The translations under genes were made by a program, and so were the position numbers. From assembly GCA_000018565.1 (NCBI GenBank), contig CP000877.1:1-64000 (forward strand): DNA of 64,000 bases, in the 5' to 3' direction. Origin of the DNA: Herpetosiphon aurantiacus DSM 785 (GTDB lineage Bacteria; Chloroflexota; Chloroflexia; Chloroflexales; Herpetosiphonaceae). The notes under the pieces are model-generated. The model was not told the origin of the DNA and ran no database searches. It worked only from the letters and a program-made list of their open reading frames with translations. Positions 62 to 62,611 of this stretch are shown here, piece after piece; positions within the stretch are counted from its first letter, which is position 1; every line of letters begins with the position of its first letter.

Positions 62-1072
62 TCACTGCAAGAACACATGCTCCAACGCTGTCACCGTGAT
101 TTTTTCCGAGACTTGGCCATACAATCCGGTCGTGGTCGTCGCGCGGGTAATCCCGCCAATCTTCTGCCATTCTGTCCCAATCCGCAGCGGATGCACTGCC
201 TCCCGCAACGCAAACAGATAGCGCGAACTGGCCCCACCAATCACGCTCGCCGTCGTCTGCATTAAGCGTCGCCGCTGCACCGCCGTGGGCGCAATCGTCA
301 AGAGCACAAACGTATCGGTCTGATACCGCGCCCGTAATTCCGTGCTTCCGGCATAGGCATGGTAGGCTTCGATCTTCTCGCGCCAGGTATCGAGGCGGCG
401 GGTTCCCCGATCCACTTCCACAAAAACCCGCAGACGACCCTGCGGATGCACTAAGACAAACGTCCCATCGGGCACCACGGGCAAGGAAACGCGCTCCATC
501 TGGCGATCGCGCTGCCGCACCACCATGATCTGATCATAGCTCCGCGCCGTCTCATGATCCCCCTGCCATCCCTCCATCGCCAGTCCGGCCATACTCGCGA
601 TTTTCACCTGCAAGGCGGCATAGACCTCGCCAATCTCGGCGGTGTGTTGGGTGATTAATGAGGAGCGCTCGCGCACCCGAAAGGCACTGATCGGCACGCG
701 GTCATCATCGTGCTGATCCGCCAAGGCCAAGGCTCCTAATTCGGTCAGCATAAAGAGGTCGGGATCACGCCCACCCCACAGTTGGGCCTGCACCGCCGCA
801 GGCCGCACCAACCGCCCAAGATAGCCCGCACTCACCAACAATTGCAAGCGTCGATAGACCGCTCGCCCGATCCGGTAGGCGGGGCGGGGTTCTCTGCGCA
901 TCCGCGCCTGCATATCGGCTTCCCACACGGGGCGGCGGTCGGGAAAGTGCAGCCATTCCAAGGCCGCAGCGGTCAAAAAGCGCACCTGCGCTAAGGTCTG
1001 AAAAATCGCCAGGTCACGCGGGGTCAACGCGACCCGCACCAAAGCTGAAGCGTTCGTCAGCGTCGTGGGCAT
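62..1072 (-). CDS. Replication-relaxation (Replic_Relax) family protein
   Basis: A 336-residue protein. The N-terminal third (about residues 15-130) reads as a winged-helix DNA-binding segment, starting at LTPRDLAIFQTLAQVRFLT. The C-terminal part carries the family signature VPDGTFVLV followed by VFVEVDRGTRRLDTWREKI, as in Replic_Relax proteins of plasmids and integrative elements, thought to act in mobilisation or replication. The start codon lies 59 bases inside the end of the upstream coupling-protein gene on the same strand, so the two are probably translationally coupled. Being next to VirD4 supports a role in DNA processing for transfer. Family assignment is fairly secure; the exact biochemical role is not known. 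Confidence 0.75.
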   Translation of the reverse strand: MPTTLTNASALVRVALTPRDLAIFQTLAQVRFLTAAALEWLHFPDRRPVWEADMQARMRREPRPAYRIGRAVYRRLQLLVSAGYLGRLVRPAAVQAQLWGGRDPDLFMLTELGALALADQHDDDRVPISAFRVRERSSLITQHTAEIGEVYAALQVKIASMAGLAMEGWQGDHETARSYDQIMVVRQRDRQMERVSLPVVPDGTFVLVHPQGRLRVFVEVDRGTRRLDTWREKIEAYHAYAGSTELRARYQTDTFVLLTIAPTAVQRRRLMQTTASVIGGASSRYLFALREAVHPLRIGTEWQKIGGITRATTTTGLYGQVSEKITVTALEHVFLQ

Positions 1073-2927
1073 GGGCTTCCTCCTCTATCACGGCGGGGTC
1101 GTCGTGGTGATCCATCATCGGCTGGGGGTTGGGCGGTTCCGCCATTGGGGTAACCGTGGCTCCAAAACTGGCCGCGTCCTCCGGAACAGGCGCAAATGCC
1201 TGGGCAGGGGTCGGCGCTCGGCGGGGTCGCTGGATGACAATCGGCACATGCGGCACCGCGGGCATCATCGCGATTTGGACTTTGGCCGCTGCCCCACGGG
1301 CAATCACCCACGCGCAGCCTGTGGGCAAGGTTCTGACATCCTGTGGGTCGATCCGCGCCTCCTCCTCCATGCGGTAGGTTCCGCGCTTCAAAATTTGCTT
1401 GCCCTGAAACTGGTGAATCGTCGTCATCACCTTTTGAACACCCGCGAGCTTGGTCAGTTCTTCGGGGGCACTCATGCGGTGTAACACCACGGTCATATTG
1501 CCAACAATCCGCGCCTGTTGGTCGGCATCACCAAGGCCCGCCAGTGTTTGGGTTCCGAGCATCACGATCCCGCCCAAACTGCGGGCCATTTCCGCCAACC
1601 GGATCACGCTCTCGGTTCCGAGGGATGAAAATTCGTCGATAATCAGCACCGTGCGGCGGTCGCTGGGCTTGCGGGTGGACAAGTAGTGTTTGATGTCCTC
1701 CAAGAGAAACTTGGCAATACTTTGGCTATCGCGCTCGTTGGCCAACACGGGCAGGCCAAAATAGGCGGCGCGGGCCTCGCTCAATCGCCAGCCATCCCGC
1801 CGAATTTGCGTGAGTTTGGGGGTCATGGTCGCAAAGCGCATAAAGACGCTCTTGGCATCCGCTGCGCTGATGCTGGCCACCCGCGCAAACCCCTGCGCGT
1901 TGTTTTTATATTGGTCGGCCAAACGGCCATATTGCAAGCGTTCTTCGAGTTCTTCAAACGAGCTTGGCAACGCCTCATCGGTGTTCAAGACCGCTCGTAA
2001 GTAGACCTCGCTCATGTCGGCATAAAATGAAGCCGCGCCCTCGGTTGCATAGGCCGGAATCGCCATAATCCGACTGAGCAACGCCCCGCTATCCCCCTCC
2101 CAGCCGTTATAGGCTTCTTGCGGGAACAAGCGACATTGCCTATCATAAAACGCCATCACATCATAAAATTCTTGCATCGTTTTGGCATCGTTTTTGGGGT
2201 TGATGAAAAAGATGTCCCAATTCGTGGAAGCCGCTATCGAAGCAGCAAAACGCAACATTGAAATGGTCTTCCCGCTTCCGTTCTCGCCAATAAACAGCAT
2301 ATGCAGACTGGCTGCGCCAATGCTCGTTGTGATATATAATAACCGCTTATGCTCATTGGCAAAGAACAACGGATCGCCCTGAATCTTGGCCCCTAAGACG
2401 GTGGCGCTATCAATCTCCTTGGTCACAGGCCGATGGGTGAGGCTCGCCGCACTCGCTTTCAGCGCCCGTCGTTTGGCCGAGTCCAGCTGAAGCGTGCGCT
2501 TTTCCTGGGCTTGGGCATCCTTGTCGGCTTGTTGCTCGGCTAAGGATTTGGGCCGCACACTCTCCCACACCATCGTCAACGCAGGCGCGAGCGGGATGGT
2601 GTAGAGCCACAACAGCGGAATCGCTCCGGCTCCCGCACTGACTACGCCCATGATCCCATCGCGGCGTTTTTCCCGTTCCATCGCCGTGCGGCTCTCCTTT
2701 AAATGATCCTGCAACGGCGACCACACGACCAAGGCCATCAGCCCTGCGCCTGCTAACGCAAGCATCGCCACCATCGGCTGGTGGGTTTTCATATAGCGTC
2801 TGCCCCACAATGCCCCAATCGCTGCGGGCAAGGCCACGATCACCACGATCAGGCCCATGAAAAAGCCCATCATTGCCCCGCCGCCGTCGCCACTGGACGC
2901 GGGTTGGGCTGCTGGTGGTTGACTCAT
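1014..2927 (-). CDS. VirD4/TraG-type conjugative coupling ATPase
   Basis: A 637-residue type IV coupling protein, which brings the DNA-relaxase complex to the transfer channel. Two hydrophobic segments at about residues 18-40 and 50-70 would anchor it in the membrane, and a third lies near 95-120. Walker A is GENGSGKT (Lys220) and Walker B is LIIDEF (Asp431-Glu432), followed by the TraG-like segment GGIVMLGTQTLAGL. The C-terminus is a Pro/Ala and acidic tail. A good ribosome site (AAGGAGG) sits just before the ATG. Gene order with VirB4, VirB6, pilin and surface proteins on the same strand supports a single-membrane (Gram-positive style) transfer system. Confidence 0.88.
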   Translation of the reverse strand: MSQPPAAQPASSGDGGGAMMGFFMGLIVVIVALPAAIGALWGRRYMKTHQPMVAMLALAGAGLMALVVWSPLQDHLKESRTAMEREKRRDGIMGVVSAGAGAIPLLWLYTIPLAPALTMVWESVRPKSLAEQQADKDAQAQEKRTLQLDSAKRRALKASAASLTHRPVTKEIDSATVLGAKIQGDPLFFANEHKRLLYITTSIGAASLHMLFIGENGSGKTISMLRFAASIAASTNWDIFFINPKNDAKTMQEFYDVMAFYDRQCRLFPQEAYNGWEGDSGALLSRIMAIPAYATEGAASFYADMSEVYLRAVLNTDEALPSSFEELEERLQYGRLADQYKNNAQGFARVASISAADAKSVFMRFATMTPKLTQIRRDGWRLSEARAAYFGLPVLANERDSQSIAKFLLEDIKHYLSTRKPSDRRTVLIIDEFSSLGTESVIRLAEMARSLGGIVMLGTQTLAGLGDADQQARIVGNMTVVLHRMSAPEELTKLAGVQKVMTTIHQFQGKQILKRGTYRMEEEARIDPQDVRTLPTGCAWVIARGAAAKVQIAMMPAVPHVPIVIQRPRRAPTPAQAFAPVPEDAASFGATVTPMAEPPNPQPMMDHHDDPAVIEEEAHAHDADERFSFGAGRVDPA

Positions 2928-6307: not shown

Positions 6308-8647
6308 TTAACCCTTCCGAATAAAGTGGGCCACTTCTTGATCGGTCAATTGCATGCGCAGATGGTGGACTTCGTTTGTGCCGAAAATGCCCACAAACTC
6401 GCCTGGGCCTGCCGTTCTGATGGCTGCAATATCGCTGGGGGATAACTCCGGAAACGCCTCACCAAGCAGGTTCGCGTCGGTTCCCTCTTGCCGCCCAAAC
6501 AGCTTCACGGCGGTGTTGTTGGTCGTCAGGTTATTGAAGTCTTGGGCATTGCCGCTACCACCCATGTACGTCGCCGAATTCTGATCACACGACCAAAGCG
6601 CTGCACCGTAATTCCGCCATTCTTTCGTCGCATTAGCGACCTCTTTTTTCAGGCTTTCAATTTGTGAAAGAATGCCGAACTCGTCCACCACACAGACCAG
6701 CTTTTGGCCTCGCGCTCGTCGTTCAGGGCTGCGAATGTAGTGGTTGAGTGCCCCGATGCCATGATCAAGGTACAAGGGGAGCAAGGCTTTATCGGCGTTG
6801 TTGAGGTTGTACGCCACCACATCGCTGCCAAAATCCCACTTCAAGGTCGTTTGGCGATCAAACAAGTGGGCTTGCGATTGCAAGGCAATATCGGTGATCT
6901 CCTCAGCCAATGCCTGCCCCACGGGGCGCTTGGTTTCGCGCAAGGCCAGCACCAGATCGCTCAAGAGCGGCGCGGTGTCGTCATCCATCTGCGCCAAAAA
7001 CACCCCATCGGGGCCATAGATCCGCGTCGATGCGAGGGCGGCATCGAGCGCTCCCCGTTCGGCGTTACTGAACTCACGCGGGCGCAACTGGACACCAGAG
7101 CCACTGGTGATCGCGCGGCCTAAGACCATGGACAACTTGCGCTCCACATGGCTTTTCTGGCGATGCAAGCTGGTTTCCATTGGATCCAGCACATTAATCG
7201 CCACGTCCTCGGCCAAGTGATAGTAGGCCGCCCCACCGCCGACCGCCTCACACAGCCGCGCACAATTCCCGACCGGATCGAACATCACGATCTGGTGGCC
7301 TGCGACGGCATGGCGCAACGCTAGCATGCCTAAACTCACGGTTTTGCCGCTGCCCGATTTGCCGAGCATCAGCAAGTGCGGGTTGTCGGTTCCGGTCGCG
7401 CCAAAGAGGTTATAGTGGTACGGCAATTGGTCGTGGGGATCGTAGCCAAACAGCACCCCGCTGGTCGCATCGCTCTTGCGAATCCCCCAGGGCGTTTTGG
7501 CCGCGACGTGTTCACTCAAGGCATTCCGCCGGATGAGCGGCGCGGCAATCTGCTTGCTCGGCGTGGTCGTGAACAATTTGAGGTATTCGCCTTGGGTTCC
7601 GCTCAGCACATCCAGTTTGAGCCGTGCGCCCATGCGGTCACGCAGGGTTTGGGTGATGCGATTCAAGTCCCGCACGCTCGGTGCTTGAATCAGGATCGCA
7701 TAGGCCACCTCGTGCAACTGCTGGACATCGAGTTGGTTCATGGCGTAGCTGACATCGCGGTAGGCGCGTTCGCTGCGCGAGTCCTTCACGGCATTCCGCG
7801 CCGTCAACGCACCCTCAAGCACATTAAAGGCATCGGTCGTCGCGCGTTGGGCCTTGGCGCGGGGCAAGGTGGTGACATCCAGCGCGACGGCCAGTTCTTC
7901 TTCCCCGCCTAAAAGCTCCTGCATACTGCCCAAATCCCACTCACCCCGCACATCAAAGGCGTGAATCACCCTTAAGTAGGGACGACCCTCGTCGAGCGGG
8001 GTCAAGTAGGTCGCCATTTCGCGGTATTTCCCATGAAACAAGGGTGGTAGCGGTGCGCTCTGGACATCGGGCAATAAGAACGTGCCCTTAAGCACACTGC
8101 GCACCGCCTCGGCATCCGTATACTCGGACGGCCAGGCCACAAAGTAATGCTGAATGCCAAGGGGATTGCCTTCGCGCTCCATGACCTCATACGCCCGCCG
8201 ATAATTCTTGAGCCACCGCCACGGCCAAAGGGCACGGCGGCAGCCATCGGCGACCACGGCCAGCGTCGTGGCATCGCTCGCACCCGTGGCCATCGCGCGG
8301 AAAGCAGCATGCACCGCTGGCGCATCCTGTAATGCCGCAGTCGCCCGTTCATAGGTTGCGAGCCGCTTCTGGACCAAGCTGGTTAATGCCGCGTTTCGGC
8401 TTCCATCCTCCTGCGCTGACACCAGCATGGGCATGAGATCGCGCAGGTCGTCAAGCGGGCTGGTTTGTTGGCGCAAGCGCTGGCGAATCGGCGCAAACGA
8501 AAAGCGCCGCGTACACGAGATCAGCCGTGCATCGTAGGTGATGCCTGCCCAAAAGTTGGCAAAGCGCTGCTCCAGCTGGGGCAATTCCTCACGGTACTGG
8601 CGAACCGAAAAGGGGTCAATCGTCAAACACAGCGGCTGCTGATTCAT
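6308..8647 (-). CDS. VirB4-type conjugation ATPase
   Basis: A 779-residue VirB4/TraC-like ATPase that powers assembly of the conjugation channel at the inner face of the membrane. Walker A is GKSGSGKT (Lys435) and Walker B is CVVDEFGIL (Asp655-Glu656). The N-terminal half (to about residue 380) is the usual VirB4 substrate or scaffold domain, and SCDQNSATYMG lies in the motif region after Walker B. The start overlaps the stop of the upstream VirB3-like gene by 4 bases (ATGA). The order pilin, VirB3-like, VirB4 is the canonical virB2-virB3-virB4 order. Confidence 0.9.
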   Translation of the reverse strand: MNQQPLCLTIDPFSVRQYREELPQLEQRFANFWAGITYDARLISCTRRFSFAPIRQRLRQQTSPLDDLRDLMPMLVSAQEDGSRNAALTSLVQKRLATYERATAALQDAPAVHAAFRAMATGASDATTLAVVADGCRRALWPWRWLKNYRRAYEVMEREGNPLGIQHYFVAWPSEYTDAEAVRSVLKGTFLLPDVQSAPLPPLFHGKYREMATYLTPLDEGRPYLRVIHAFDVRGEWDLGSMQELLGGEEELAVALDVTTLPRAKAQRATTDAFNVLEGALTARNAVKDSRSERAYRDVSYAMNQLDVQQLHEVAYAILIQAPSVRDLNRITQTLRDRMGARLKLDVLSGTQGEYLKLFTTTPSKQIAAPLIRRNALSEHVAAKTPWGIRKSDATSGVLFGYDPHDQLPYHYNLFGATGTDNPHLLMLGKSGSGKTVSLGMLALRHAVAGHQIVMFDPVGNCARLCEAVGGGAAYYHLAEDVAINVLDPMETSLHRQKSHVERKLSMVLGRAITSGSGVQLRPREFSNAERGALDAALASTRIYGPDGVFLAQMDDDTAPLLSDLVLALRETKRPVGQALAEEITDIALQSQAHLFDRQTTLKWDFGSDVVAYNLNNADKALLPLYLDHGIGALNHYIRSPERRARGQKLVCVVDEFGILSQIESLKKEVANATKEWRNYGAALWSCDQNSATYMGGSGNAQDFNNLTTNNTAVKLFGRQEGTDANLLGEAFPELSPSDIAAIRTAGPGEFVGIFGTNEVHHLRMQLTDQEVAHFIRKG

Positions 8648-9060
8648 GGACTTTCTCCTTCGGGCCGTCCGTGGGCCACGGCTTCGGCGGCCATGCGGCG
8701 CGGCGCAACCACCAACTGTCCGGCCTGGCGCACCCCCACGGCATGTTCGCGTTCTTCGATCACCCGATACCAGTCGCCTGCGTCAATCATGCGCGGTTTA
8801 ATCGCGCTCCGCAGATAAAAGAGCAGGGCCAACCACAGCCGCCGTCCCCACATCAAACCGCGTCGATTCAGCGACAACCCTAAGCCCAACGCCACCCCCA
8901 CCACACTCAGCAGCATCACGATGCCGCCTGTGCCCATGAGTTGGCCAACCCGACTGCCCATGAACCCACCAAGGATTGCTGACCCTACGTTTTTATATGT
9001 CAGTATCCAAAAAGCAGCCTCTTCGCCACGGCCTAAAAACTGTTCTAATTCGCGAGCCAT
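8644..9060 (-). CDS. VirB3/PrgI-like small membrane protein
   Basis: A 138-residue protein with two adjacent membrane segments (about residues 25-42 and 45-63) followed by a basic amphipathic stretch (RRGLMWGRRLWLALLFYLRS). That topology and its place directly before virB4, with a 4-base overlap, match VirB3/PrgI/TcpE-type subunits that partner VirB4. Sequence similarity alone would not settle the family. GGGAGGT precedes the ATG. Confidence 0.6.
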   Translation of the reverse strand: MARELEQFLGRGEEAAFWILTYKNVGSAILGGFMGSRVGQLMGTGGIVMLLSVVGVALGLGLSLNRRGLMWGRRLWLALLFYLRSAIKPRMIDAGDWYRVIEEREHAVGVRQAGQLVVAPRRMAAEAVAHGRPEGESP

Positions 9061-9124: not shown

Positions 9125-9231
9125 TTAGCTCCCGAACGCGAACCCAACCAAGTCAGGGATGACACCCAAGCCGATAGCCGCAAACAGCACTTTGCGCATC
9201 ATCCCCTTATGTAGAGTAGGAGCATAGCGCC
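9125..9231 (-). CDS. Pilin-like gene, exon 2 (VirB2/TrbC type)
   Basis: This is the downstream part of the gene whose first exon is at 11719-11992. After removal of the intron the frame continues as RRYAPTLHKGMMRKVLFAAI and ends GFAFGS with TAA at 9125-9127. It supplies the second membrane helix (MMRKVLFAAIGLGVIPDLV) missing from exon 1, which is the normal place of the second helix in VirB2/TrbC pilins. The exons sum to 381 bases (127 codons), so the frame is intact after splicing. It has no start site of its own. Confidence 0.7.
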
Positions 9232-9308
9232 GTGCTGACTTTTCAGTCAGTCGATTTCTACACCCCCCTCCCCAAACCGGACATGCACCTTTCAGCGCAT
9301 CCGGCTTT
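9232..9308 (-). ncRNA. Group II intron domains V and VI
   Basis: On the minus strand, AGCCGGATGCGC-TGAAA-GGTGCATGTCCGGTTT (9308 to 9274) has the domain V layout: AGC triad, GAAA loop and closing stem. Domain VI follows, with CTGACT-GAAA-AGTCAG at about 9234-9249, ending in AC at 9233-9232. Confidence 0.8.
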
Positions 9309-9352
9309 CACGGACAACATTTCCTATCGTTCAGCCCCGTTGTTCCGTTGTT

Positions 9353-11116
9353 TCATCGTGGTTCTTTGCCATGCTTCCGAAGATGGCATGCGCGGCAAAG
9401 GCATTGGAGATTTTCCAATTTGTGCGCGGTTTGTCGCCGCGTGAAGCGTTTCAACGGTATCCGGTGGTCAATTTCTGCCGTGCTACGATGCACGCGTGTG
9501 CCGCAGTGTTGGCAGGTGTAGTTGCTCATCTGGAGTACCTCTTGTCGTATCTGTTCCCACGCCTTCCCATAGGCAGGGTTCGCGGGCCGTTCCGGATGGC
9601 TATTTCGCGCCAACAGCAGCGCTAAGCGTTTGCGTTGGTCGAGTTTTGCCCGGTCGGCTTTGCGGTACGGATGCAGTTGTGGGTGTAAGGCGACATATTC
9701 AATCGGCAGGAACGCCAAGCTCGTGACAATGTAGGCTCGCGTTTGGGCGGTGTTTGCCCATACGCCGTAATGGCCCCCTCGTCGATGTGCGTGTTTTCGG
9801 TTGAGACCGTCACGGTATCGTTTGCGATGGCTTCGGCAGTGTGTGCCAAAGTGCCGGACTCCCCGCCCGCGTCGCAGCCGGAACGTCGTTCGCATCACCC
9901 GCCACCAAATGTAGTGGTCGAGACTGCGAAACGTGGTTGAGCTGCTCACTCGTCGGTAATAGTGGCCCCATCCGGTGAGGTAGTGGTTCAACATTACGAT
10001 GCCCGCTTCGTCACTGTCCCGAAATCCTTTGCCGATGCGGTCTGCCGCCTCGCGTTTGAAGGTCGCAATCGCCTTCCGTGATGGGGTTATCCGTGTGCTG
10101 TCTTGGTATTTCCGGATGTGAAATCCAAGAAAGTCAAAGCCCTGTTCCACCGGCGTTATCAGCGTCTTTTCCGCTGATAATTCCAAGTGGAGGTGGTCAG
10201 CGAGAAACGTCGCGAGCGCGGTTTTCAAGGTGGTTGCCTCGGCGTGTGTGCCGTGGAGCAATACCACAAAGTCATCCGCGTAGCGGGTTATCTGACAGGG
10301 ATACCCCGTTCCGGCTTTCCGATGGTAATAGCGCTCTAGTGGGGTGTAGGTGTCCCATCGGTTGGCTACCCATTGGTCAAGCTCGTTCAGGTAGATGTTG
10401 GCCAGCAGTGGCGAGACAATTCCGCCCTGTGGCGTTCCGTCCTCCGTTACGCGCCACTGTCCATCGTCCATCACTCCGGCCTTGAGCATCTGGTGGATGA
10501 CCGTTATCAGGCGTTCATCCTTGATTGTCCGGCGTAGAATCCGGATTAAGGTGGTGTGATGAATTCGGTCAAAGCACGCGCGGATGTCTCCTTCTAGGGC
10601 CATCTGGTAGCCTCGTCGTCCGATCAGGTCGCGGAGTCGTACCACCGCGTGATGGGTTGCCCGATAGGGGCGAAATCCATAACTATGGCGATAAAACGTG
10701 CTTTCATAGATCGGGTCGAGGATCAGCCGTACCATCTCTTGCACCACCCGATCTTTGATCGTGGGAATACCGAGCGGTCGTTGCTGTCCATTGGCTTTGG
10801 GGATATACACCCGACGCACGGGAGCTGGCCGATACTGATGGGTTGTCAGGTCGTGCCAGATTTCCTGAACCAATGCCTGTTGTTCTGTATCCGTTGCGAT
10901 ATGCTTCTTGGTCATTCCGTCAATCCCTGCGGTGCGTGCTCCCGTGTTGGAAAGCACCCGATTGAGTGCCACCGTGGCGAGTCGCCGTGTCCGCATGAGA
11001 TTGAATACCCGATGAAAGGGTTGTTGGTTGAGACTTCGATGGGCTAACACTTCTTGCGTCTGATTGATCCAAGCGGTGAGCGCGGTTCCGCGCTCATCAA
11101 GTGGGGTCGTGTTCAT
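9353..11116 (-). CDS. ltrA: Group II intron reverse transcriptase/maturase with HNH endonuclease
   Basis: A 587-residue intron-encoded protein needed for splicing and retrohoming. Reverse transcriptase blocks run from about residue 60 to 350, including GIPTIKDRVVQ, GFRPYRATHHAV, PQGGIVSPLLANIYL and the catalytic YADD. The maturase (X/thumb) domain follows with a group II maturase segment around LNHYLTGWGHYYR. The C-terminal HNH endonuclease is at about 530-587 (CQHCG, EIDHRIPL, CLCRACHLRKHG). All key residues look intact, so the intron may be active. GAGGT precedes the ATG. Confidence 0.93.
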   Translation of the reverse strand: MNTTPLDERGTALTAWINQTQEVLAHRSLNQQPFHRVFNLMRTRRLATVALNRVLSNTGARTAGIDGMTKKHIATDTEQQALVQEIWHDLTTHQYRPAPVRRVYIPKANGQQRPLGIPTIKDRVVQEMVRLILDPIYESTFYRHSYGFRPYRATHHAVVRLRDLIGRRGYQMALEGDIRACFDRIHHTTLIRILRRTIKDERLITVIHQMLKAGVMDDGQWRVTEDGTPQGGIVSPLLANIYLNELDQWVANRWDTYTPLERYYHRKAGTGYPCQITRYADDFVVLLHGTHAEATTLKTALATFLADHLHLELSAEKTLITPVEQGFDFLGFHIRKYQDSTRITPSRKAIATFKREAADRIGKGFRDSDEAGIVMLNHYLTGWGHYYRRVSSSTTFRSLDHYIWWRVMRTTFRLRRGRGVRHFGTHCRSHRKRYRDGLNRKHAHRRGGHYGVWANTAQTRAYIVTSLAFLPIEYVALHPQLHPYRKADRAKLDQRKRLALLLARNSHPERPANPAYGKAWEQIRQEVLQMSNYTCQHCGTRVHRSTAEIDHRIPLKRFTRRQTAHKLENLQCLCRACHLRKHGKEPR

Positions 11117-11718
11117 AGGCGACTACCTCATTTTTTTTTTAAAATGAGGCCGACGGTCAGACGTGTTGTTGTCCCTAGCCCCCTTCGCCCTGTGGACGGT
11201 TTTCCCGTCCGCCATGGTGGGGTCGTTACCCCCACGACTACTACGGAGCCTCCGCCCTCCTACCACCACCTCAGCGTCAGCTACCCAGCCCTTTTCTCAG
11301 GGCGGGTGGTAGAAGTTCACACGTTCCAATGGTGCCGTCGTTGCAGACAATCCCGTAGGTGCTGGCTATACGCGGAAGTCATCTCCGGACTTATACCTCT
11401 GTAGCCACGGAGCCATCGATTGCTCGATGTCAGGTCGGGAAAGACAAGCCCGCCTGCTGGTCTTATGTCCCCCTATCCATCATCAGCGGGGGGTCTGGGC
11501 TAACCACGCTTGCGCCAATTCGCTCTCGCTCACCATAGGATGTCATTGAGGGTAGCCTGGCTTATTGGGATGATGGCATCCCGCACCAGTACGTTAGGGG
11601 CGGCTTCACACCCTCGGTTTGCTCGAACCGAACGCATGCGCCCCTTTCCCGCATCAACGTGAGGTCGTCAATGGTCTGTATTACAACAGACGGCGACACC
11701 ATTAGCCTCGTGTCGCAC

Positions 11719-11992
11719 TGTCGCGCGCCCAATCTGGGAGTACTGGCTCCGCGACGTAGCTGATAAAGACCAGCACCAGTGCCAAAACCGCCAACGGTCG
11801 CCCAATCGTGGTCAATTGCTCGGTAATATCCTCAATCTTGGCCTCAAGCTGGCCGACCTGATTGTGCGTCGCTTCATCGGCAACAACCGCGCTTCCGCCA
11901 ACAGGGGCGGCGTAACTGGCGGCCACGGGGCCAGCGAACACGGCCAACCCGAACACGATGATCGACAACAAACCATAGGCGAACGATTTCAT
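11719..11992 (-). CDS. Pilin-like gene, exon 1 (VirB2/TrbC type)
   Basis: Upstream exon of a 126-residue predicted conjugative pilin. It starts with a signal peptide (MKSFAYGLLSIIVFGLAVFA, then AASYAAP as a likely cleavage zone), a charged helix (NQVGQLEAKIEDITEQLTT) and the first membrane helix (PLAVLALVLVFISYV). Unspliced, the frame would run only into the intron and stop at 11702 after four wrong residues. Spliced to 9125-9231, it gains the second helix and a normal stop. GGAGG lies before the ATG. Position before VirB3-like and VirB4 genes supports a pilin or T4SS channel subunit. Confidence 0.72.
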
Positions 11993-40381: not shown

Positions 40382-41172
40382 CTACGACTGGCCTTTTGTC
40401 TTCATGATGGCTTGTAAAGAGACGAGATTCGCACGAATAATCTGGGTATCGGGATGCTCGGACCCCAACACTGCTTCATAGATAGCCAATGCCCGTTCAT
40501 ACAAGCGCTGCGCCTCCCCATACCGCCCTTGACGCTCTAAGACCACCGCCAGATTGTTCACACTCGTCGCCGTATCGGGATGCTCCGCCCCCAACACTGC
40601 TTCATAGATAGCCAATGCCCGTTCATACAAGCGCTGCGCCTCAGCATACCGCCCTTGCCGCTTCAAGACCAACGCCAGATTGTTCACACTCGTCGCCGTA
40701 TCGGGATGCTCCGCCCCCAACACCGCTTCCCGCACCGCCAAGGCCCGTTCATACAAGCGCTGCGCCTCAGCATACCGCCCTTGACTCTCCAAGACCACCG
40801 CCAGATTGTTCACACTCGTCGCCGTAGCGGGATGCTCCGCCCCCAACACCGCTTCCCTGATCGCCAAGGCCCGTTCAAACAAGCGCTGCGCCTCAGCATA
40901 CCGCCCTTGACTCTCCAAGACCAACGCCAGATTGTTCACACTCCACGCCGTATTGGGATGCTCCGCCCCCAACACCGTTTCCCGCACCGCCAAGGCCCGT
41001 TCATACAAGCGCTGCGCCTCAGCATACCGCCCTTGCCGCTTCAAGACCGAAGCCAGATTGTGCACACTCGTCGCCGTATCGGGATGCTCCGCCCCCAACA
41101 CCGCTTCCCGCACCGCCAAGGCCCGTTCATACAAGCGCTGCGCCTCCCCATACCGCCCTTGACTCTCCAAGA
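40382..41172 (-). pseudogene. 3' part of the broken STAND-TPR gene
   Basis: It codes for six tetratricopeptide repeats of the form GRYAEAQRLYERALAVREAV with GAEHPDTATS linkers, then the tail SLQAIMKTKGQS. It has no start of its own; the longer frame seen here begins inside the inserted element. Confidence 0.75.
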
Positions 41173-42448
41173 GGTGGTATAACGAAAGTGGTGCAAAATT
41201 AATGAGAGCCAGGTGGACTATACTTGGAGTTACCACACACCCAAGAAAGGACCACCATGACTCCCAGCAAGAAGCATACCCATTCGCCCGTGATCGGTCA
41301 AGCCGAAGCCCAAGCCAGTTTCCAGCAGCTGGTGCAGCACCAGATTCGGCAGGCAATTCGCGCCACCTTCATCGACATTTTGGAAGACGAAGTGGCGGCC
41401 TTCATCGGTGCACAGCCCTATGAACGTACCGACGAGCGGCGTGACCATCGCGCCGGACATCGCTCGCGCACGCTTGGCACGACCGCTGGCGTGATCGACG
41501 ATTTGCCCGTTCCGCGTACTCGTGGTGGCTTTCGCACCCAGCTGTTTGACCGCTACCAGCGCCGCATGCACGATGTCGATACCCTGATGCAGGATATGTT
41601 TGTCGGCGGGGTCAGCCAAACCGCCGTTGGCACGGTGGTCGAGCACTTAACGGGCAACGCGCCCAGTCCCTCAACGGTCTCGCGGGTGTTTCATACCCTT
41701 GATGACGAGTTTCAGGCCTGGCAAGCGCGTCCGTTGCCGCCACGCTACTGCTATGCCTTTGCCGATGGCACCTATTTCAGCGTGATCTACAATGGCCAAG
41801 GCCAGAAAATGCCCATTTTGGCCTTGATTGGCATCACCCCCGATGGCCAGCGCGAGGTGATTGCCTTCACGACGGGTGAGCGGGAAAACCAAGGCGCGTG
41901 GGAAAACCTGCTGGCCGACATCAAGGATCGCGGGGTGGACACCATTGATTTGTGGATTACCGATGGACATCAGGCGATGCTGAACGCGATTGCGGCGAAA
42001 TTTCCCGCGTCCCAGCGCCAGCGCTGTGTCGTGCACAAAATGAGCAACATCGAAAGCCACATTCCCGAGAAATACCGCGATGCACTGCACGCGGAGCTGC
42101 GGGCGATCTTCTATCAACCCGACCGAGCGCAGGCTGACCAAGCGGCAGCGGCGTTTATGGCCAAATACGAGCGCCAGTACCCATCAGCGATCCGCTGTAT
42201 GCAACGCGATTGGGAGGCCTGTTTGACCTTCTATGCCTATCCAGAAGGGCATTGGGTGAACATTCGGACATCGAATATCATTGAACGGACGTTCGAGGAG
42301 GTCAAGAAGCGCAGCAAAAAAATGGCGACGGCCTTTCGGAATGAGGGCAGTTGTTTACTGCTGTTTTATGCGGTCGTTCGAACACTTCAACTTCGCAAAA
42401 TTCGCATGCCTGGCTAAATTAATTTTGCACACTTCTTGACAAACCACC
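41173..42448 (+). mobile_element. IS256-family insertion sequence
   Basis: A 1276-bp element with ends GGTGGTATAAC and GGTGGTTTGTC and further matching inner bases (GTGCAAAATTAAT on both sides). It is flanked by the 8-bp target duplicate CTCCAAGA at 41165-41172 and 42449-42456. One intact mutator-type transposase gene lies inside on the plus strand. Confidence 0.9.
41257..42417 (+). CDS. IS256-family (mutator type) transposase
   Basis: A 386-residue transposase. The start at 41257 ([15 protein letters not shown]) has AAAGGA upstream. The DDE residues fall in [19 protein letters not shown] and [17 protein letters not shown], the last being the family hallmark. RCVVHKMSN and the C-terminal [17 protein letters not shown] are also typical. 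The frame is whole, so the element may still move. Confidence 0.93.
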
Positions 42449-44341
42449 CTCCAAGACCACCGCCAGATTGTTCACACTCGTCGCCGTAGCGGGATGCTCC
42501 GCCCCCAACACCGCTTCCCTGATCGCCAAGGCCCGTTCAAACAAGCGCTGCGCCTCAGCATACCGCCCTTGCCGCTTCAAGACCACCGCCAGATTGTTCA
42601 CACTCGTCGCCGTATCGGGATGCTCCGCCCCCAACACCGCTTCCCGCACCGCCAAGGCCCGTTCATGCAACTCCTCTGCAGCAGCATAGGCTCCTCGCAG
42701 ATCTTCATAAAAACCAAGACTATTGGCAAGGCGGGCTGCCTGGGCATCACCACGATCCAACGCCCGCATGGTGGCATACCGCAGATGCGGCGCAAGCGGC
42801 AGCATCGAACGTGGCACACCCGTCCCATTCGCACGGGATGCTGCAGCACCAATCCGGTCTTCCACCACGGCCAGCGTTTCGGACGATCCTAAATGTGCCT
42901 GCACAACCTGAGCGAGCAATCGGTGTAACACCACGGCATCCGTGCCATCGAGCAATCCAAGCTGCTGTAAGCGCCGCAACGCATCAACCCTGGCGGTATG
43001 GGTTGTCTCATCCGGCATGAATGTCAGCACCAACTCGCGCGGAATTGGTACACCCGGCGCACACCACGCCGCCCCATCAAGCATGCCCAATGCCAAGGCA
43101 TCAATCGTGTTGTCCGGATCAAGCTGGTTAAAACTCAACATAAACGTCGCGTCGACATTCTGTTCATGTTCGGTTGGCGAGTCAAATGCTCCATACCCAT
43201 GCAACGATTCATGGGCAATACTGAGGGCAGCACGATACGCCGTAATCGTAGGCCGATAGGTATGAAGATAGCTTCCTGCCAGATGTAACGCGAGTGGTAA
43301 ATGTCCCAGATCCTCCGCAATCAGATCAGCGTCAGCATCCGTGAGATCACTATAGAGCGACTGCAAGAGTGCTCGACTTTCTACGGGTGAGAGCACCCCA
43401 AGCTGGATCTGGGTTAGGGTTGGCCACTGATTGGATCGAGAAGTCACCAGCACCCGACAGCCGCCGACCGTGGGCTTCCACCGTTTGAGCAGTACGCGAT
43501 CTTCACAGTTATCGAAAATCAGCAAGCGTGGCATGGGCGATTTCCAAACGTTGAGAACCCGTTGCACCTGCTCATCGAGCGCCATCCCAGTAGTATCAAG
43601 TTTCAAGCCAACCGCACACGCGGCTATTTGACTGGCCACTTGATCGGGGTCGGCACAATTCAGCCAAAACACCCCGCCATAAAAGTAGACTCCATAGCGA
43701 TAGGCAAATTCGGTGACGAGGCTGGTTTTGCCAATACCACCAAGCCCTGTGGCCACCGCTGGCATGACGACCGCTGGTTGGGCTGAACCAATCGCCTGTG
43801 CCAACTGTTTCAATGCTTCTTCGCGTCCAACAAAGTGCGGGCTGGCTTCAAAGGGCAGGCGTGAGGGGTGGGGCAAATCCGCACGGGGTTCTGGTACATA
43901 ACCAAGCGGCATTGAGGCAAGGGCAGCGAGGGCAGCGGGCAGCGGATCAATCGGCTGGGGCTGGTGAATCGTCTGATGAATTGACCCATAATTATCGCGG
44001 ACAACAACCCCTGAAACACCACTCTCGTTGATCGTCATATCCCCATGGTGGATGGTGGCAGGCAACGAGGCACGGGCAATGAGCGCGGCGAGAGTCGGAT
44101 CAAGCGGCTGCGGGAGGTGGACGTTCATCGTGTAGCCTGCATGCACGTCGCCTATCGTCACCGTGGCATTGGTAAAATCATTGTTCTGGCCAAATAGCAT
44201 CGAGATCGTCTTGTCACCAAGCAACGCAGGATGGCCAGCAAAGACCGATTCGAGGGCCATCATAACACTCGCACGATCATACTGGGGGCAGTGGGCAAGA
44301 ATGGCATCGGCCACGATGGGTATGAGCGCGGGGACATCCAT
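42419..44341 (-). pseudogene. 5' part of the broken STAND-TPR gene
   Basis: It covers the N-terminal domain, NB-ARC NTPase and the first two tetratricopeptide repeats, then runs into the insertion and stops at 42419 after GGLSRSVQN, residues coded by the element. The truncated 640-residue protein would keep its switch but lose most of its sensor repeats. Confidence 0.75.
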
Positions 44342-44934: not shown

Positions 44935-44984
44935 AGAGGAACACCACCAACTACACAGTGCCAGCATGCCGAGGGTTTGTCACG

Positions 44985-47900
44985 ATGAGCAGCACGTTTG
45001 CATCCTTCCATCTCACCATTGCCGCCCCCCACGGGGATCGCTATCCCGTGACCGCCCGCACTCAGGCGGGCAATGAAGTCAATGAGGACATCCTACTGCC
45101 GCTTGATGATCCGACCCTGACCGTCTACCAGATGGCGCTGCGTTATCCCATATCTATTGACGAATCCGTGGTGATTGCGGTTGGCCAACTCCTCTACCAA
45201 GCCCTGTTTCAAGGAACCATTGCGGAAGCCTTTGCCACGGCTCGCGCCCACGCCGATCAGCAAAAAGTGGCGTTGCGTCTCCATTTGGCGATTCAGAAAT
45301 CCCTCCCCACAATTGCGGCACTTCCATGGGAACTGATGGCGACTGAGGCGGGCCGCCCGCTTATGCTGGAACATGCCTTAGTGCGAACTTTTTCGTGGAA
45401 CGATCCGATTCCTGATTTGGGGATTCCCTCGGGCGAGCGTATTCGGCTCGCCGTGACCTCGGCCTTACCTATGGAGTTGGCTGATCACCCGATTGCGGCG
45501 GAAGATGAAGTTGCCATCATCCGTGCTGCCATCACGCATAGCGCACGGCCAATTGATCTCATCGAAGTCCCTCACCTCACCCGCGACCGCTTGACCGATC
45601 TGCTCACGAACCAACGCCCCCATATCGTGCATCATATCGGCCATGGCATTATTCAATCAGATATGAGCTATCTCGACCTTGAACGCGCCGACCAGTCCCG
45701 TGATCAGCTCTCGGCTCGCGAGTTCAGCAGTATGCTGCATCAGTCAGGGGTACAGCTGGTGGTCTTGAATGCCTGCCACACGGGCAGCGCTGGCGAGAAC
45801 CTCCTCACCAGCTTTGCCCCAATTTTCATCACCGATCGCATTCCGGCAGCGATTGGCATGCAAGCCGCGATCCTGAATCGCACTGGCCACTGCTTTGCGA
45901 ATGCCTTCTATGCCGCCCTGGGCAACAGTGGATCGATTGATGCCAGCCTGATTGCAGCACGCAAGGCAATTTTGGCCGATGGGCATGAGCATGGGGCATG
46001 GGGGTTTCCAACCCTGTATAGTCGGGTTCCGCACAGCCAACTGTGGGGTTATCGAACGCCACAGCCTGTTGATCCACTCACCCAACGCGACCGCGAACGC
46101 ATCACCAAAGCCGCTCAACAAATCGAGAGTGATCGGCTTTTAAATCTGCGCCTTCAGGGCTTCGTCGGTCGGGTCAACGAACTGGCGGCCATGCGCGAGC
46201 ATATCGAAGCGATGCGGCCTACGGGGGGCTATGTCCTGATCAAAGCGGCAGCAGGCGAAGGCAAGAGTAGCAGCATTGCCAAGCTGATTCAGGAGGCGGG
46301 GATTGCGCAGACCCCGCACCACTTTATTGCCCTCACCACGGGCCGCGACTATCAATTGGGGTTGTTGCGTGCGGTGGTGGCGCAACTGATTCTCAAACAC
46401 AACCTGACGGTTTCCTATTTCCCCGAAGAAAGCTATCCGGCCATGAAGGGCGAGTTTGCGCGGATTCTGGATGATCTTTCCAAACAGGGGATTCAGGAAA
46501 CAATCTATCTGGATGGCCTCGATCAACTCCAACCAGAGCGTGATGGCTCTCGGGATCTCTCCTTTCTGCCACCGCAGCCGCCGCCAGGCATCGTGATCGT
46601 CCTTGGCTCACGACCGGATGAAACCTTGAAACCGCTGGAGATTTTGCATCGGGTTGATTATGCCTTGCCACCACTCAGCGAAGGGGATGCTCTCGCGTTG
46701 TGGCGATCGGTCCAGCCTGCCGTGGCGGATAGCCTCTTGCATGACCTCTATACAGCACTGAAGGGCAATGCGCTGTTTGTCTATTTGGCTGCCGATACGA
46801 TGCGCGATCAATCCGTGGTCGATGCGACCAGTTTGATTCGCCGGATTGAACAGAACCCGCACAACCTTTTCGGCATCACGCTGGAGCGGATCAAAAATCG
46901 TTCTGAGCATCGTTGGCCGACCATTTGGAAGCCCATGCTGGCGCTGTTGCTGGTCGCCCAAGAACCATTGCGGCTGGATGTCTTGGGCGATCTCCTCGAA
47001 CATGACCACGATACCATGCAGGATGCCGTGTGGGTCTTGGGCGGTTTGGTCAGTCAGGGCATTGATCAACGGGTTGCGCTCCATCATCTACTCTTTCGTG
47101 ACTTTTTGGCGGCATCGGTGTTTAATGATCGTGAGGTCAAACGCTGGCACCAACGACTGGCTGACTGGTGTGCGCAGGATGTGGATGCGATTTGGGCCGA
47201 TCATCCCGATACAATGGAACAAGCACGGCGGATCTATGCGCGGTATCACTACATCATCCATCTTGCACTGGCTGAGAACTGGACAACACTCTGGCAGGTC
47301 TTGGATACGGGCGACTATGGCGAACAGAAAACCCGCTTTGATCCGAGTACCCGCTTGTATGCGCTCGATTTGGATCGCGGACGTGAAAGTGCTATCACGG
47401 CGGGGCGATCAACCGAGGAACATATTCAGAACTTGCCACGCTTGTGGAAATATAGTTTGTTGCGGACGAGCTTAACCAGCCGTGTTGATCAATGGCCGGA
47501 TGAGGTGTTTGAGGTTTTGGCAATAGTTGGCCGCACGCACGAAGCATTGGAACGCATTGAACTTCTTTCGAGCAACGAGAATCAGATATCATGTTGGCTC
47601 AGGATTCTTCCATGGTGTGATAACAAACAACAGCATTTACTGGTCATGCGATTGGACGAGGTATGCAGACATCTTTCGGGCTTCGACAAAAAAATGGATG
47701 CGATTCGTGCTATTGCGAACGCTGCTGCCACCCACGGCCAGCGAGAACAGGCATTAGCGATTCTCACCACGGCTGTGTCCATCGCCCACTCCATTGATCA
47801 CCCATACTATAGGAGCGATGCGCTCGCGACCATTGCAAAAGACACCGCCACCTACGGCCAGCGAGAACAGGCATTAGCGATTCTCACCACGGCTGCGTCC

Positions 47901-50861
47901 ATCGCTCACTCCATTGATGACCCATCCGATAAGAGCGCTGCGCTCGCGACCATTGCAATTGCTGCTGCCACCCTCGGCCAGCGAGAACAGGCATTAGCGA
48001 TTCTCACCACGGCTGTATCCATCGCCCACTCCATTGATGACCCATACGAGAAGAGCGATGCGCTCGCGACCATTGCAATTGCTGCTGCCACCCTCGGCCA
48101 GCGAGAACAGGCATTAGCGATTCTTGCCACGGCTGTGTCCATCGCCCACTCCATTGATCACCCATACTATAGGAGCGATGCGCTCGCGACCATTGCAAAA
48201 GACACCGCCACCTACGGCGCTATCGACCAAGCCCTGTCCATCGCCCACTCCATTGATAACCCATACTATAGGAGCGATGCGCTCGCGACCATTGCAAATG
48301 CTGCTGCCACCCACGGCCAGCGAGAACAGGCATTAGCGATTCTCACCACGGCTGTATCCATCGCCCAATCCATTGATGGCTTCAATAAGAGCGCTGTGCT
48401 CGCGACCTTTGCAAATGCTGCTGCCACCTACGGCGCTATCGACCAAGCCCTGTCCATCGCCCACTCCATTGATGGCTTAAATAGGAGCGATGCGCTCGCG
48501 ACCGTTGCAAAAGGCATCGCCACCTACGGCGCTATCGACCAAGCCCTGTCCATCGCCCACTCCATTGATCACCCATACTATAGGAGCGATGCGCTCGCGA
48601 CCATTGCAAATGCTGCTGCCACCCACGGCCAGCGAGAACAGGCATTAGCGATTCTCACCACGGCTGTATCCATCGCCCAATCCATTGATGGCTTCAATAA
48701 GAGCGCTGTGCTCGCGACCTTTGCAAAAGACACCGCCACCTACGGCGCTATCGACCAAGCCCTGTCCATCGCCCACTCCATTGATCACCCATTGCAACGA
48801 CGCGATGTTCTCCTTATTATCGCAGCCACTGCTGCCACCCACGGCCAGCAAGAACAGGCATTAGCGATTCTTGCCACAGCTGTGTCCATCGCCCACTCCA
48901 TTGATGACCCATCCCATAAGAGCGCTGTGCTCGAGACCATTGCAAAAGACACCGCCACCTACGGCGCTATCGACCACGCTGTATCCATCACCCAATCCAT
49001 TGATAGCCCATACCATAAGAGCAAGGCGCTCGCGTCCATTGCAAATGCTGCTGCCACCCTCGGCCAGCGAGAACAGGCATTAGCGATTCTCACCACGGCT
49101 GTATCCATCGCCCACTCCATTGATCACTCATACCATAAGAGCGCTGTGCTCGCGACCTTTGCAAATGCTGCTGCCACCTACGGCGCTATCGACCAAGCCC
49201 TGTCCATCGCCCACTCCATTGATGGCTTAATAAATAGGAGCGATGCGCTCGCGACCGTTGCAAAAGGCACCGCCACCTACGGCGCTATCGACCAAGCCCT
49301 GTCCATCGCCCACTCCATTGATCACCCATTGCAACGGCGCGATGTTCTCCTTATTATCGCAGCCACTGCTGCCACCCACGGCCAGCGAGAACAGGCATTA
49401 GCGATTCTTGCCACGGCTGTGTCCATCGCCCACTCCATTGATATCCCATGGCAGAAGAGCGATGCGCTCGCGACCATTGCAAAAGACACCGCCACCTACG
49501 GCGCTATCGACCACGCTGTGTCCATCACCCACTCCATTGATGACCTATTCTATAAGAGCGATGCTCTCTTTATTATCGCAGCCACTGCTGCCACCCTCGG
49601 ACAGCAAGAACAGGCATTAGCGATTCTCGCCACAGCTGTGTCCATCGCCCAATCCATTGATAGCCTATACTATCTGAGCGATGCGCTCGCGACCATTGTA
49701 AATGCTGCTGCCACCCACGGCCAGCGAGAACAGGCCTTGGCCATCGCCCATTCCATTGATGACCCATCCCATAAGAGCGCTGTGCTCGCGACCATTGCAA
49801 TTGCTGCTGCCACCCACGGCCAGCGAGAACAGGCCTTGGCCATCGCCCATTCCATTGATGACCCATACCATAAGAGCGATGCGCTCACGACCATTGCAAA
49901 TGCTGCTGTCACCCACGGCCAGCGAGAACAGGCATTAGCGATTCTCACCACGGCTGCGTCCATCGCCCACTCCATTGATGACCCATACTATAAGAGCGGT
50001 GCGCTCGCGACCATTGCCAACGCTGCTGCCACCCTCGGCCAGCGAGAACAGGCATTAGCGATTCTCGCCACGGCTGCGTCCATCACCCAATCCATTGATG
50101 ACCCATACGAGAAGAGCGATGCGCTCGCGACCATTGCCAACGCTGCTGCCACCCTCGGCCAGCGAGAACAGGCATTAGCGATTCTCGCCACGGCTGTGTC
50201 CATCACCCACTCCATTGATAGCCCATCCCATAAGAGCACTGTGCTCGCGACCATTGTAAATGCTGCCACCCACAGCGCTATCGACCACGCTGTATCCATC
50301 ACCCAATCCATTGATAGCCCATACCATAAGAGCAAGGCGCTCGCGTCCATTGCAAATGCTGCTGCCACCCTCGGCCAGCGAGAACAGGCATTAGCGATTC
50401 TCACCACGGCTGTATCCATCACCCACTCCATTGATAGCCCATCCCATAAGAGCACTGTGCTCGCGACCATTGCAAATGCTGCTGCCACCTACGGCGCTAT
50501 CGACCAAGCCCTGTCCATCGCCCACTCCATTGATGACCCATTGCAACGGCACGCTGTACTCGCGACCATCGCAGCCGCTGATGCATCCCAAGACGCTATC
50601 GAACGTGCGCTGTCCATTGCCCACTCCATTGACAATCTAGACCACCGTGCCGAGACCTTTCGCATCATTCTTCAAAAAGACCTATCAGTCATAGACGTTT
50701 TAACAAGCATTCAGCATGAATGGTTCCGCAGTAAAATACCTCAGGATCTATGGACAATGACACCAATGATTGCTCCATTATTAAACGACTATCCATGGTT
50801 AGGAACAGTAATTCTGGAAGAAGAGGCATGGGTGAACGAACAACTCAAACGACTGGGGTAA
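44985..50861 (+). CDS. CHAT protease-NTPase protein with about 27 tandem helical repeats
   Basis: A 1958-residue protein. The start at 44985 (MSSTFASFHLTIAAPHG) has GAGGG upstream; an in-frame GTG at 44958 is the alternative. A caspase-like CHAT domain occupies roughly 1-370, with the catalytic pair His220 (HHIGHG) and Cys264 (LNACHTGSA). A NACHT/AAA-type NTPase follows with AAAGEGKSS (Lys427) and the Walker B-like IYLDGLDQLQ. From about 905 to 1885 it is built of long (40-residue) and short (31-residue) helical repeats such as GQREQALAILTTAVSIAHSI, followed by a unique tail. The layout suggests a cytoplasmic sensor-protease that cuts a target on activation, as proposed for CHAT-STAND conflict systems. 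The partner substrate is unknown. Confidence 0.85.
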   Translation: MSSTFASFHLTIAAPHGDRYPVTARTQAGNEVNEDILLPLDDPTLTVYQMALRYPISIDESVVIAVGQLLYQALFQGTIAEAFATARAHADQQKVALRLHLAIQKSLPTIAALPWELMATEAGRPLMLEHALVRTFSWNDPIPDLGIPSGERIRLAVTSALPMELADHPIAAEDEVAIIRAAITHSARPIDLIEVPHLTRDRLTDLLTNQRPHIVHHIGHGIIQSDMSYLDLERADQSRDQLSAREFSSMLHQSGVQLVVLNACHTGSAGENLLTSFAPIFITDRIPAAIGMQAAILNRTGHCFANAFYAALGNSGSIDASLIAARKAILADGHEHGAWGFPTLYSRVPHSQLWGYRTPQPVDPLTQRDRERITKAAQQIESDRLLNLRLQGFVGRVNELAAMREHIEAMRPTGGYVLIKAAAGEGKSSSIAKLIQEAGIAQTPHHFIALTTGRDYQLGLLRAVVAQLILKHNLTVSYFPEESYPAMKGEFARILDDLSKQGIQETIYLDGLDQLQPERDGSRDLSFLPPQPPPGIVIVLGSRPDETLKPLEILHRVDYALPPLSEGDALALWRSVQPAVADSLLHDLYTALKGNALFVYLAADTMRDQSVVDATSLIRRIEQNPHNLFGITLERIKNRSEHRWPTIWKPMLALLLVAQEPLRLDVLGDLLEHDHDTMQDAVWVLGGLVSQGIDQRVALHHLLFRDFLAASVFNDREVKRWHQRLADWCAQDVDAIWADHPDTMEQARRIYARYHYIIHLALAENWTTLWQVLDTGDYGEQKTRFDPSTRLYALDLDRGRESAITAGRSTEEHIQNLPRLWKYSLLRTSLTSRVDQWPDEVFEVLAIVGRTHEALERIELLSSNENQISCWLRILPWCDNKQQHLLVMRLDEVCRHLSGFDKKMDAIRAIANAAATHGQREQALAILTTAVSIAHSIDHPYYRSDALATIAKDTATYGQREQALAILTTAASIAHSIDDPSDKSAALATIAIAAATLGQREQALAILTTAVSIAHSIDDPYEKSDALATIAIAAATLGQREQALAILATAVSIAHSIDHPYYRSDALATIAKDTATYGAIDQALSIAHSIDNPYYRSDALATIANAAATHGQREQALAILTTAVSIAQSIDGFNKSAVLATFANAAATYGAIDQALSIAHSIDGLNRSDALATVAKGIATYGAIDQALSIAHSIDHPYYRSDALATIANAAATHGQREQALAILTTAVSIAQSIDGFNKSAVLATFAKDTATYGAIDQALSIAHSIDHPLQRRDVLLIIAATAATHGQQEQALAILATAVSIAHSIDDPSHKSAVLETIAKDTATYGAIDHAVSITQSIDSPYHKSKALASIANAAATLGQREQALAILTTAVSIAHSIDHSYHKSAVLATFANAAATYGAIDQALSIAHSIDGLINRSDALATVAKGTATYGAIDQALSIAHSIDHPLQRRDVLLIIAATAATHGQREQALAILATAVSIAHSIDIPWQKSDALATIAKDTATYGAIDHAVSITHSIDDLFYKSDALFIIAATAATLGQQEQALAILATAVSIAQSIDSLYYLSDALATIVNAAATHGQREQALAIAHSIDDPSHKSAVLATIAIAAATHGQREQALAIAHSIDDPYHKSDALTTIANAAVTHGQREQALAILTTAASIAHSIDDPYYKSGALATIANAAATLGQREQALAILATAASITQSIDDPYEKSDALATIANAAATLGQREQALAILATAVSITHSIDSPSHKSTVLATIVNAATHSAIDHAVSITQSIDSPYHKSKALASIANAAATLGQREQALAILTTAVSITHSIDSPSHKSTVLATIANAAATYGAIDQALSIAHSIDDPLQRHAVLATIAAADASQDAIERALSIAHSIDNLDHRAETFRIILQKDLSVIDVLTSIQHEWFRSKIPQDLWTMTPMIAPLLNDYPWLGTVILEEEAWVNEQLKRLG
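47690..50640 (+). repeat. Near-identical coding tandem repeats
   Basis: About 27 units, mostly around 120 bases (long) and 93 bases (short), inside the CHAT gene. Blocks like GGCCAGCGAGAACAGGCATT and GCCCACTCCATTGAT recur almost unchanged, so the array has recently expanded or been homogenised. It is coding in one frame throughout. Confidence 0.9.
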
Positions 50862-62609: not shown

Positions 62610-62611
62610 TG

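Follow-up and report, generated by a model that had tools for sequence, protein, structure and literature searches.

The question raised by this locus is how a conjugative plasmid could produce its pilin when the only pilin gene found for it is divided by 2,508 nt of intervening DNA. The plasmid, pHAU02 (99,204 bp, CP000877), belongs to Herpetosiphon aurantiacus 114-95T (DSM 785), a predatory bacterium that moves by gliding, and the window, i.e., the whole stretch of DNA that was analysed, covers 64,000 nt of it. The genome of this strain is represented by 3 contigs with a total of 6,785,430 bp, including a chromosome of 6,346,587 bp; the published sizes of the chromosome and pHAU02 agree with these sequences, with 88,204 printed once for pHAU02, and neither "intron" nor "conjugation" occurs in the main text of the genome paper (PMC3368417). 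No near copy of the plasmid was detected in the plasmid collection searched, from which the window's own record is possibly absent. The answer developed below is that a mobile group II intron, probably spliced out in the cell, is located among the conserved codons for the loop between the two membrane helices encoded by the sole pilin gene found, within the conjugation locus of pHAU02.

The gene order on the minus strand of the window, with the interrupted pilin gene followed by VirB3-like and VirB4-like genes, was the same as that proposed in an initial sequence-only reading of this DNA, the VirB3-like gene being named by position only. This gene (8644..9060, minus strand) gave no match in a Pfam search with its protein, and it is syntenic and 79–92% identical in relatives. 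The VirB4-like ATPase gene (6308..8647, minus strand) was matched by NCBIfam VirB4-type models with E values of 1e-15 to 1e-11, below their cut-offs, and is also syntenic. A VirD4/TraG-like coupling protein gene (1014..2927, minus strand), recognised by PF12696 and PF10412 above their cut-offs, is syntenic in two relatives. It is adjoined by the gene of a Replic_Relax protein (62-1072; PF13814, 1.8e-19), which may be the relaxase or a replication protein of pHAU02; a search of the whole H. aurantiacus genome for a PF03432 relaxase was negative.

The pilin frame starts with the ATG at 11992 and, without splicing, reaches a stop after 96 aa. Exon 1 (11719..11992, minus strand; 274 nt, ending with GAC A) encodes a signal-like helix and the first membrane helix, and exon 2 (9125..9210, minus strand; 86 nt including the stop) encodes the second membrane helix. 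The intron between them (9211..11718, minus strand; GTGCG...CTAC) carries termini that fit the group II rule, namely 5' GUGYG (GTGCG at 11718) and 3' AY (AC at 9211). The 5' end, already placed at 11718 in the sequence-only reading, is common to three related introns from other genomes, described below. At the other end, Rfam model RF00029 (cut-off 40 bits) matched positions 9309-9211 of the minus strand with a score of 62.7 bits, so that the last intron base is 9211 (...CCTACTCTAC/ATAAGG, with the slash marking the boundary). Both the catalytic domain V (9274..9307, minus strand), with its two-base bulge, and domain VI (9213..9271, minus strand), with a bulged A at 9217 as the candidate branch point, are present in the intron, and the two domains together fold with a z-score of −4.9. 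Domain VI exceeds that of the Rfam model by approximately 22 nt (domains V and VI together span 99 positions, compared with 77 in the model), and this extension is common to the three related introns.

The 3' end had previously been assigned to position 9232. This assignment was 21 nt off, since position 9211 follows alike from the Rfam match, from the folding of domain VI and from the empty sites in relatives; a boundary at 9232 falls inside domain VI and leaves a 21-nt insert that is found in none of the six uninterrupted genes. The earlier frame still worked because the error was a multiple of three. The spliced pilin ORF is consequently 360 nt long (119 aa and the stop) with AAT as the junction codon, rather than 381 bases with AGG, and the protein across the junction reads ...LPDWARD/NKGMMRKVLFAAIGLGVIPDLVGFAFGS.

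The empty sites were provided by three other Herpetosiphon genomes (G002, G003 and G004), in which the same conjugation locus is present in the same order and most of the proteins are 79–98% identical. Each of them carries two tandem uninterrupted pilin genes at the place where pHAU02 has one interrupted gene, and these six genes are the uninterrupted relatives that the sequence-only reading had recommended seeking. Alignment of the joined exons with them required no gap at the junction and revealed no target duplication in any case (6/6), with nucleotide identities of 75–82% in exon 1 and 79–88% in exon 2; at the protein level, the spliced pilin was 85–95% identical to the relatives over its whole length (E values of 1e-67 to 5e-61). 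Together with the Rfam match, these sites bear out the central claim made earlier, that a group II intron splits a VirB2-like pilin gene and that its removal restores the gene exactly, with exon 1 at 11992-11719, exon 2 ending at 9125 and the frame restored on joining. The differences from the relatives are mostly synonymous, with dN/dS values of about 0.04–0.08 in exon 1 and 0–0.05 in exon 2, which compare whole lineages and not the time after insertion alone.

The unspliced frame is in itself a 96-aa ORF, and exon 1 could on this basis be taken for a complete short gene followed by an unrelated exon 2. Relatives with such an arrangement were looked for, and the six close homologues, as well as several distant ones from other genera of the class, were found to continue uninterrupted through the junction instead, by which the proposal of a stand-alone exon 1 is refuted.

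The difference in pilin gene number between pHAU02 and its relatives was considered separately. Loss of one tandem copy by recombination between two intron copies predicts that exon 1 should resemble the first copies of the relatives. This prediction was contradicted in all three relatives, where exon 1 was closer to the second copy than to the first (228 against 210, 228 against 225, and 214 against 208 matches), and a loss of this kind is therefore not supported. The single copy may also be ancestral.

As regards the product of the gene, the spliced pilin matched PF04956 (TrbC/VirB2) weakly, with an E value of 0.022 and below the gathering score; other members of the same family gave values of 5e-06 for PF04956 and 3.9e-07 for PF18895 (T4SS_pilin). 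The AlphaFold model of an uninterrupted relative, of modest confidence (pLDDT 62), contains helices at residues 2–27 (signal-like), 44–82 and 87–118, and places the intron site near the loop joining the last two of them. A structure search with this model gave nothing informative, and a search of the PDB with the pilin profile reached VirB2 only at an E value of 0.13. At the same time, a protein of 119 aa with a signal-like helix and two more helices, encoded just upstream of a virB4-type gene, fits the traits of VirB2/TrbC, whose members have a length of about 100–120 aa. The family matches to T4SS pilins, the helix model and the position of the VirB4-like ATPase gene just downstream thus make a VirB2-like pilin the best assignment.

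The intron carries its own gene (9353..11116, minus strand), predicted to encode a full-length protein of 587 aa with reverse transcriptase, maturase and HNH parts and an intact YADD motif at residue 279. The Pfam matches were PF00078 (1.5e-36), PF08388 (5.8e-10) and PF01844 (4.5e-09), and TIGR04416 was matched at 3.7e-110, with 368 bits against a cut-off of 300. Among solved structures, the best match in sequence was T.el4h (PDB 6me0, E 2.4e-61), followed by LtrA (PDB 5g2x, E 2.8e-58), both being distant relatives only. The nearest proteins in the genome collection, 52–55% identical, are encoded by the three related introns, which come from a Chloroflexota MAG, a Chloroflexi MAG and Bellilinea caldifistulae; the next relative, from Desulfotruncus, is 43% identical. 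A search of IMG/VR detected no relatives of the pilin or of the intron protein. The three related introns share with the pilin intron the extended domain VI and EBS sites at homologous positions, but differ in their host genes, which, named by reading the sequence, are helicase/methyltransferase-like (cut at the DECH box) and AAA-ATPase-like. Joining of their exons without the intron produced open frames as well, in all three cases.

Other group II introns are present in the same strain. Two, with identical match scores, are located on the chromosome at positions 166550 and 6106443, and they belong to a lineage different from that of the pilin intron (39% protein identity). Additionally, a third H. 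aurantiacus locus contains a reverse transcriptase gene with a domain V.

The sequences guiding the intron to its exons were sought by aligning the four introns (that of the window and its three relatives) and scoring the pairing of each column with the last six exon bases. A single column, taken as EBS1, yielded 23 of 24 possible pairs over the four introns, each of which has its own different exon. At most 20 pairs were reached at any column with 2,000 random exon sets, and at most 21 pairs when the exons were reassigned among the four introns. In the window, EBS1 (UGUCUU; 11441..11446, minus strand) lies in the loop of a hairpin at 11452-11436 and pairs with IBS1 (GCGACA; 11719..11724, minus strand) at five of six positions, the mismatch being at −5; the homologous column pairs at 6/6 in the three related introns. 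A second column pairs exon positions −14 to −9 in 21 of 24 instances and corresponds to EBS2 (GCCCAG; 11495..11500, minus strand), located in the loop of a hairpin at 11505-11492 and pairing with IBS2 (TTGGGC; 11727..11732, minus strand) at all six positions. This result is weaker than that for EBS1/IBS1, as 21 pairs were also reached by one other exon assignment. A weak candidate for EBS3, the U at 11368 (minus strand), pairs with the first base of exon 2; three columns show the expected pattern over the four introns, of which the one with this U fits best by context, and only one of the four introns differs at this base. This candidate points to subclass IIB, characterised by EBS3-IBS3 in place of delta-delta' pairing, to which the intron probably belongs, resting in this respect on one differing base, whereas Ll.LtrB, the precedent considered below, is a IIA intron.

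The mismatch at −5 might reduce the efficiency of splicing or of homing. In G003, each of the two pilin genes contains CTGGGC..GAGACA/A, with which EBS2, EBS1 and EBS3 are paired at every position, and this offers a lead, based on few alleles, as to the origin of the mismatch: insertion may originally have been into a pilin allele resembling that of G003, with the exon either changed later (synonymous AGA to CGC, both Arg) or recombined. The same mismatch, together with the two pilin copies kept by the relatives as against one interrupted copy in pHAU02, is consistent with an insertion that acts as an effective knock-out, in which poor splicing would leave the plasmid without pilin or self-transfer. 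This outcome appears unlikely, however, given that the intron RNA and protein are intact, and that the exon frame is also intact, with a low dN/dS relative to the relatives, even if the latter value covers more than the period since the insertion.

Taken together, the preserved RNA domains, protein, guide sequences and empty sites make it highly probable that the element is a splicing-competent mobile group II intron. The pilin pre-mRNA would carry the intron, from which the maturase would be translated; the intron RNA would fold and splice with the help of the maturase, and the ligated exons would be translated into the 119-aa pilin. The released ribonucleoprotein could then home to empty pilin genes, and translation of unspliced mRNA would end after 96 aa, before the second helix. 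No second copy of the pilin gene was detected anywhere in the H. aurantiacus genome, and it is a sound inference that pilin production in this organism should depend on splicing. If the pilin is needed for transfer, transfer would depend on splicing too, and its rate might be reduced by the presence of the intron, as happens with Ll.LtrB.

The latter intron is located in the relaxase gene ltrB of the Lactococcus lactis plasmid pRS01. Its splicing has been demonstrated, as has its influence on transfer: relaxase expression and transfer both drop 3- to 4-fold in its presence (PMC6003770). Like the pilin intron, Ll.LtrB encodes a maturase and resides in a conjugation gene of a conjugative plasmid, which is restored by splicing; the host gene is different, and the splicing proven for Ll.LtrB is predicted from sequence for the pilin intron. 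Two further group II introns, B.th.I1 and B.th.I2, are known from the transfer region of the Bacillus thuringiensis plasmid pAW63 (PMC1196294). They also lie inside T4SS/conjugation genes that are uninterrupted in sister plasmids; their hosts differ from a pilin gene, being a Tn916 ORF14-like gene and, for B.th.I2, a VirD4 homologue, and B.th.I2 is devoid of a protein gene (PMC1196294).

The sequence-only reading had suggested that the intron might serve to control conjugation. A regulatory switch, with condition-dependent splicing turning conjugation on or off, would be in line with the Ll.LtrB effect and with the location of the intron in the sole pilin gene found. This suggestion received no support in the present analysis and is very unlikely to be correct: no sign of conditional splicing was seen in the sequence, and relatives of the conjugation locus are without the intron, whereas relatives of the intron occupy other genes, so that the pairing of the two looks like a single chance event and not a conserved control. 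A simpler reading is that of a mobile intron whose homing targets are conserved sites and whose presence there is tolerated because splicing removes it. It is likewise quite improbable that splicing controls pilus assembly and transfer in a broader sense, either in a condition-dependent manner or through an attack of the spliced intron on pilin mRNA, as Ll.LtrB does on relaxase mRNA. If such control did operate, a retroelement would, by way of a structural subunit, determine how often its carrier is transferred.

Conjugation genes are thus already known as hosts of group II introns, and the pilin gene is an addition to them; no title or abstract describing a group II intron with a pilin gene as host was found in the open full-text literature. 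The present case adds a structural subunit to the conjugation genes hosting such introns, in the phylum Chloroflexota, and sister species supply the exact empty sites. Since a pilin is likely to be required in large numbers, the expression cost of the intron could exceed that for a relaxase. Moreover, with one occupied and six empty sites at hand, homing into T4SS genes becomes directly testable.

Several other features of the window deserve mention. In the region 40382-44341, a transposase-like ORF (41224-42417) is flanked by two ORFs sharing TPR-type repeats and, by reading of the sequence, apparently interrupts what was once a single NTPase-TPR gene. A 1,967-aa ORF at 44958-50861 contains a STAND-type NTPase match and many similar repeats (AHSIDDP-type) arranged in a long array. 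Finally, in a defence-like cluster at 57969-63868, type I methyltransferase and specificity genes precede those encoding a PtuA-like ATPase and a protein of the HNH type.
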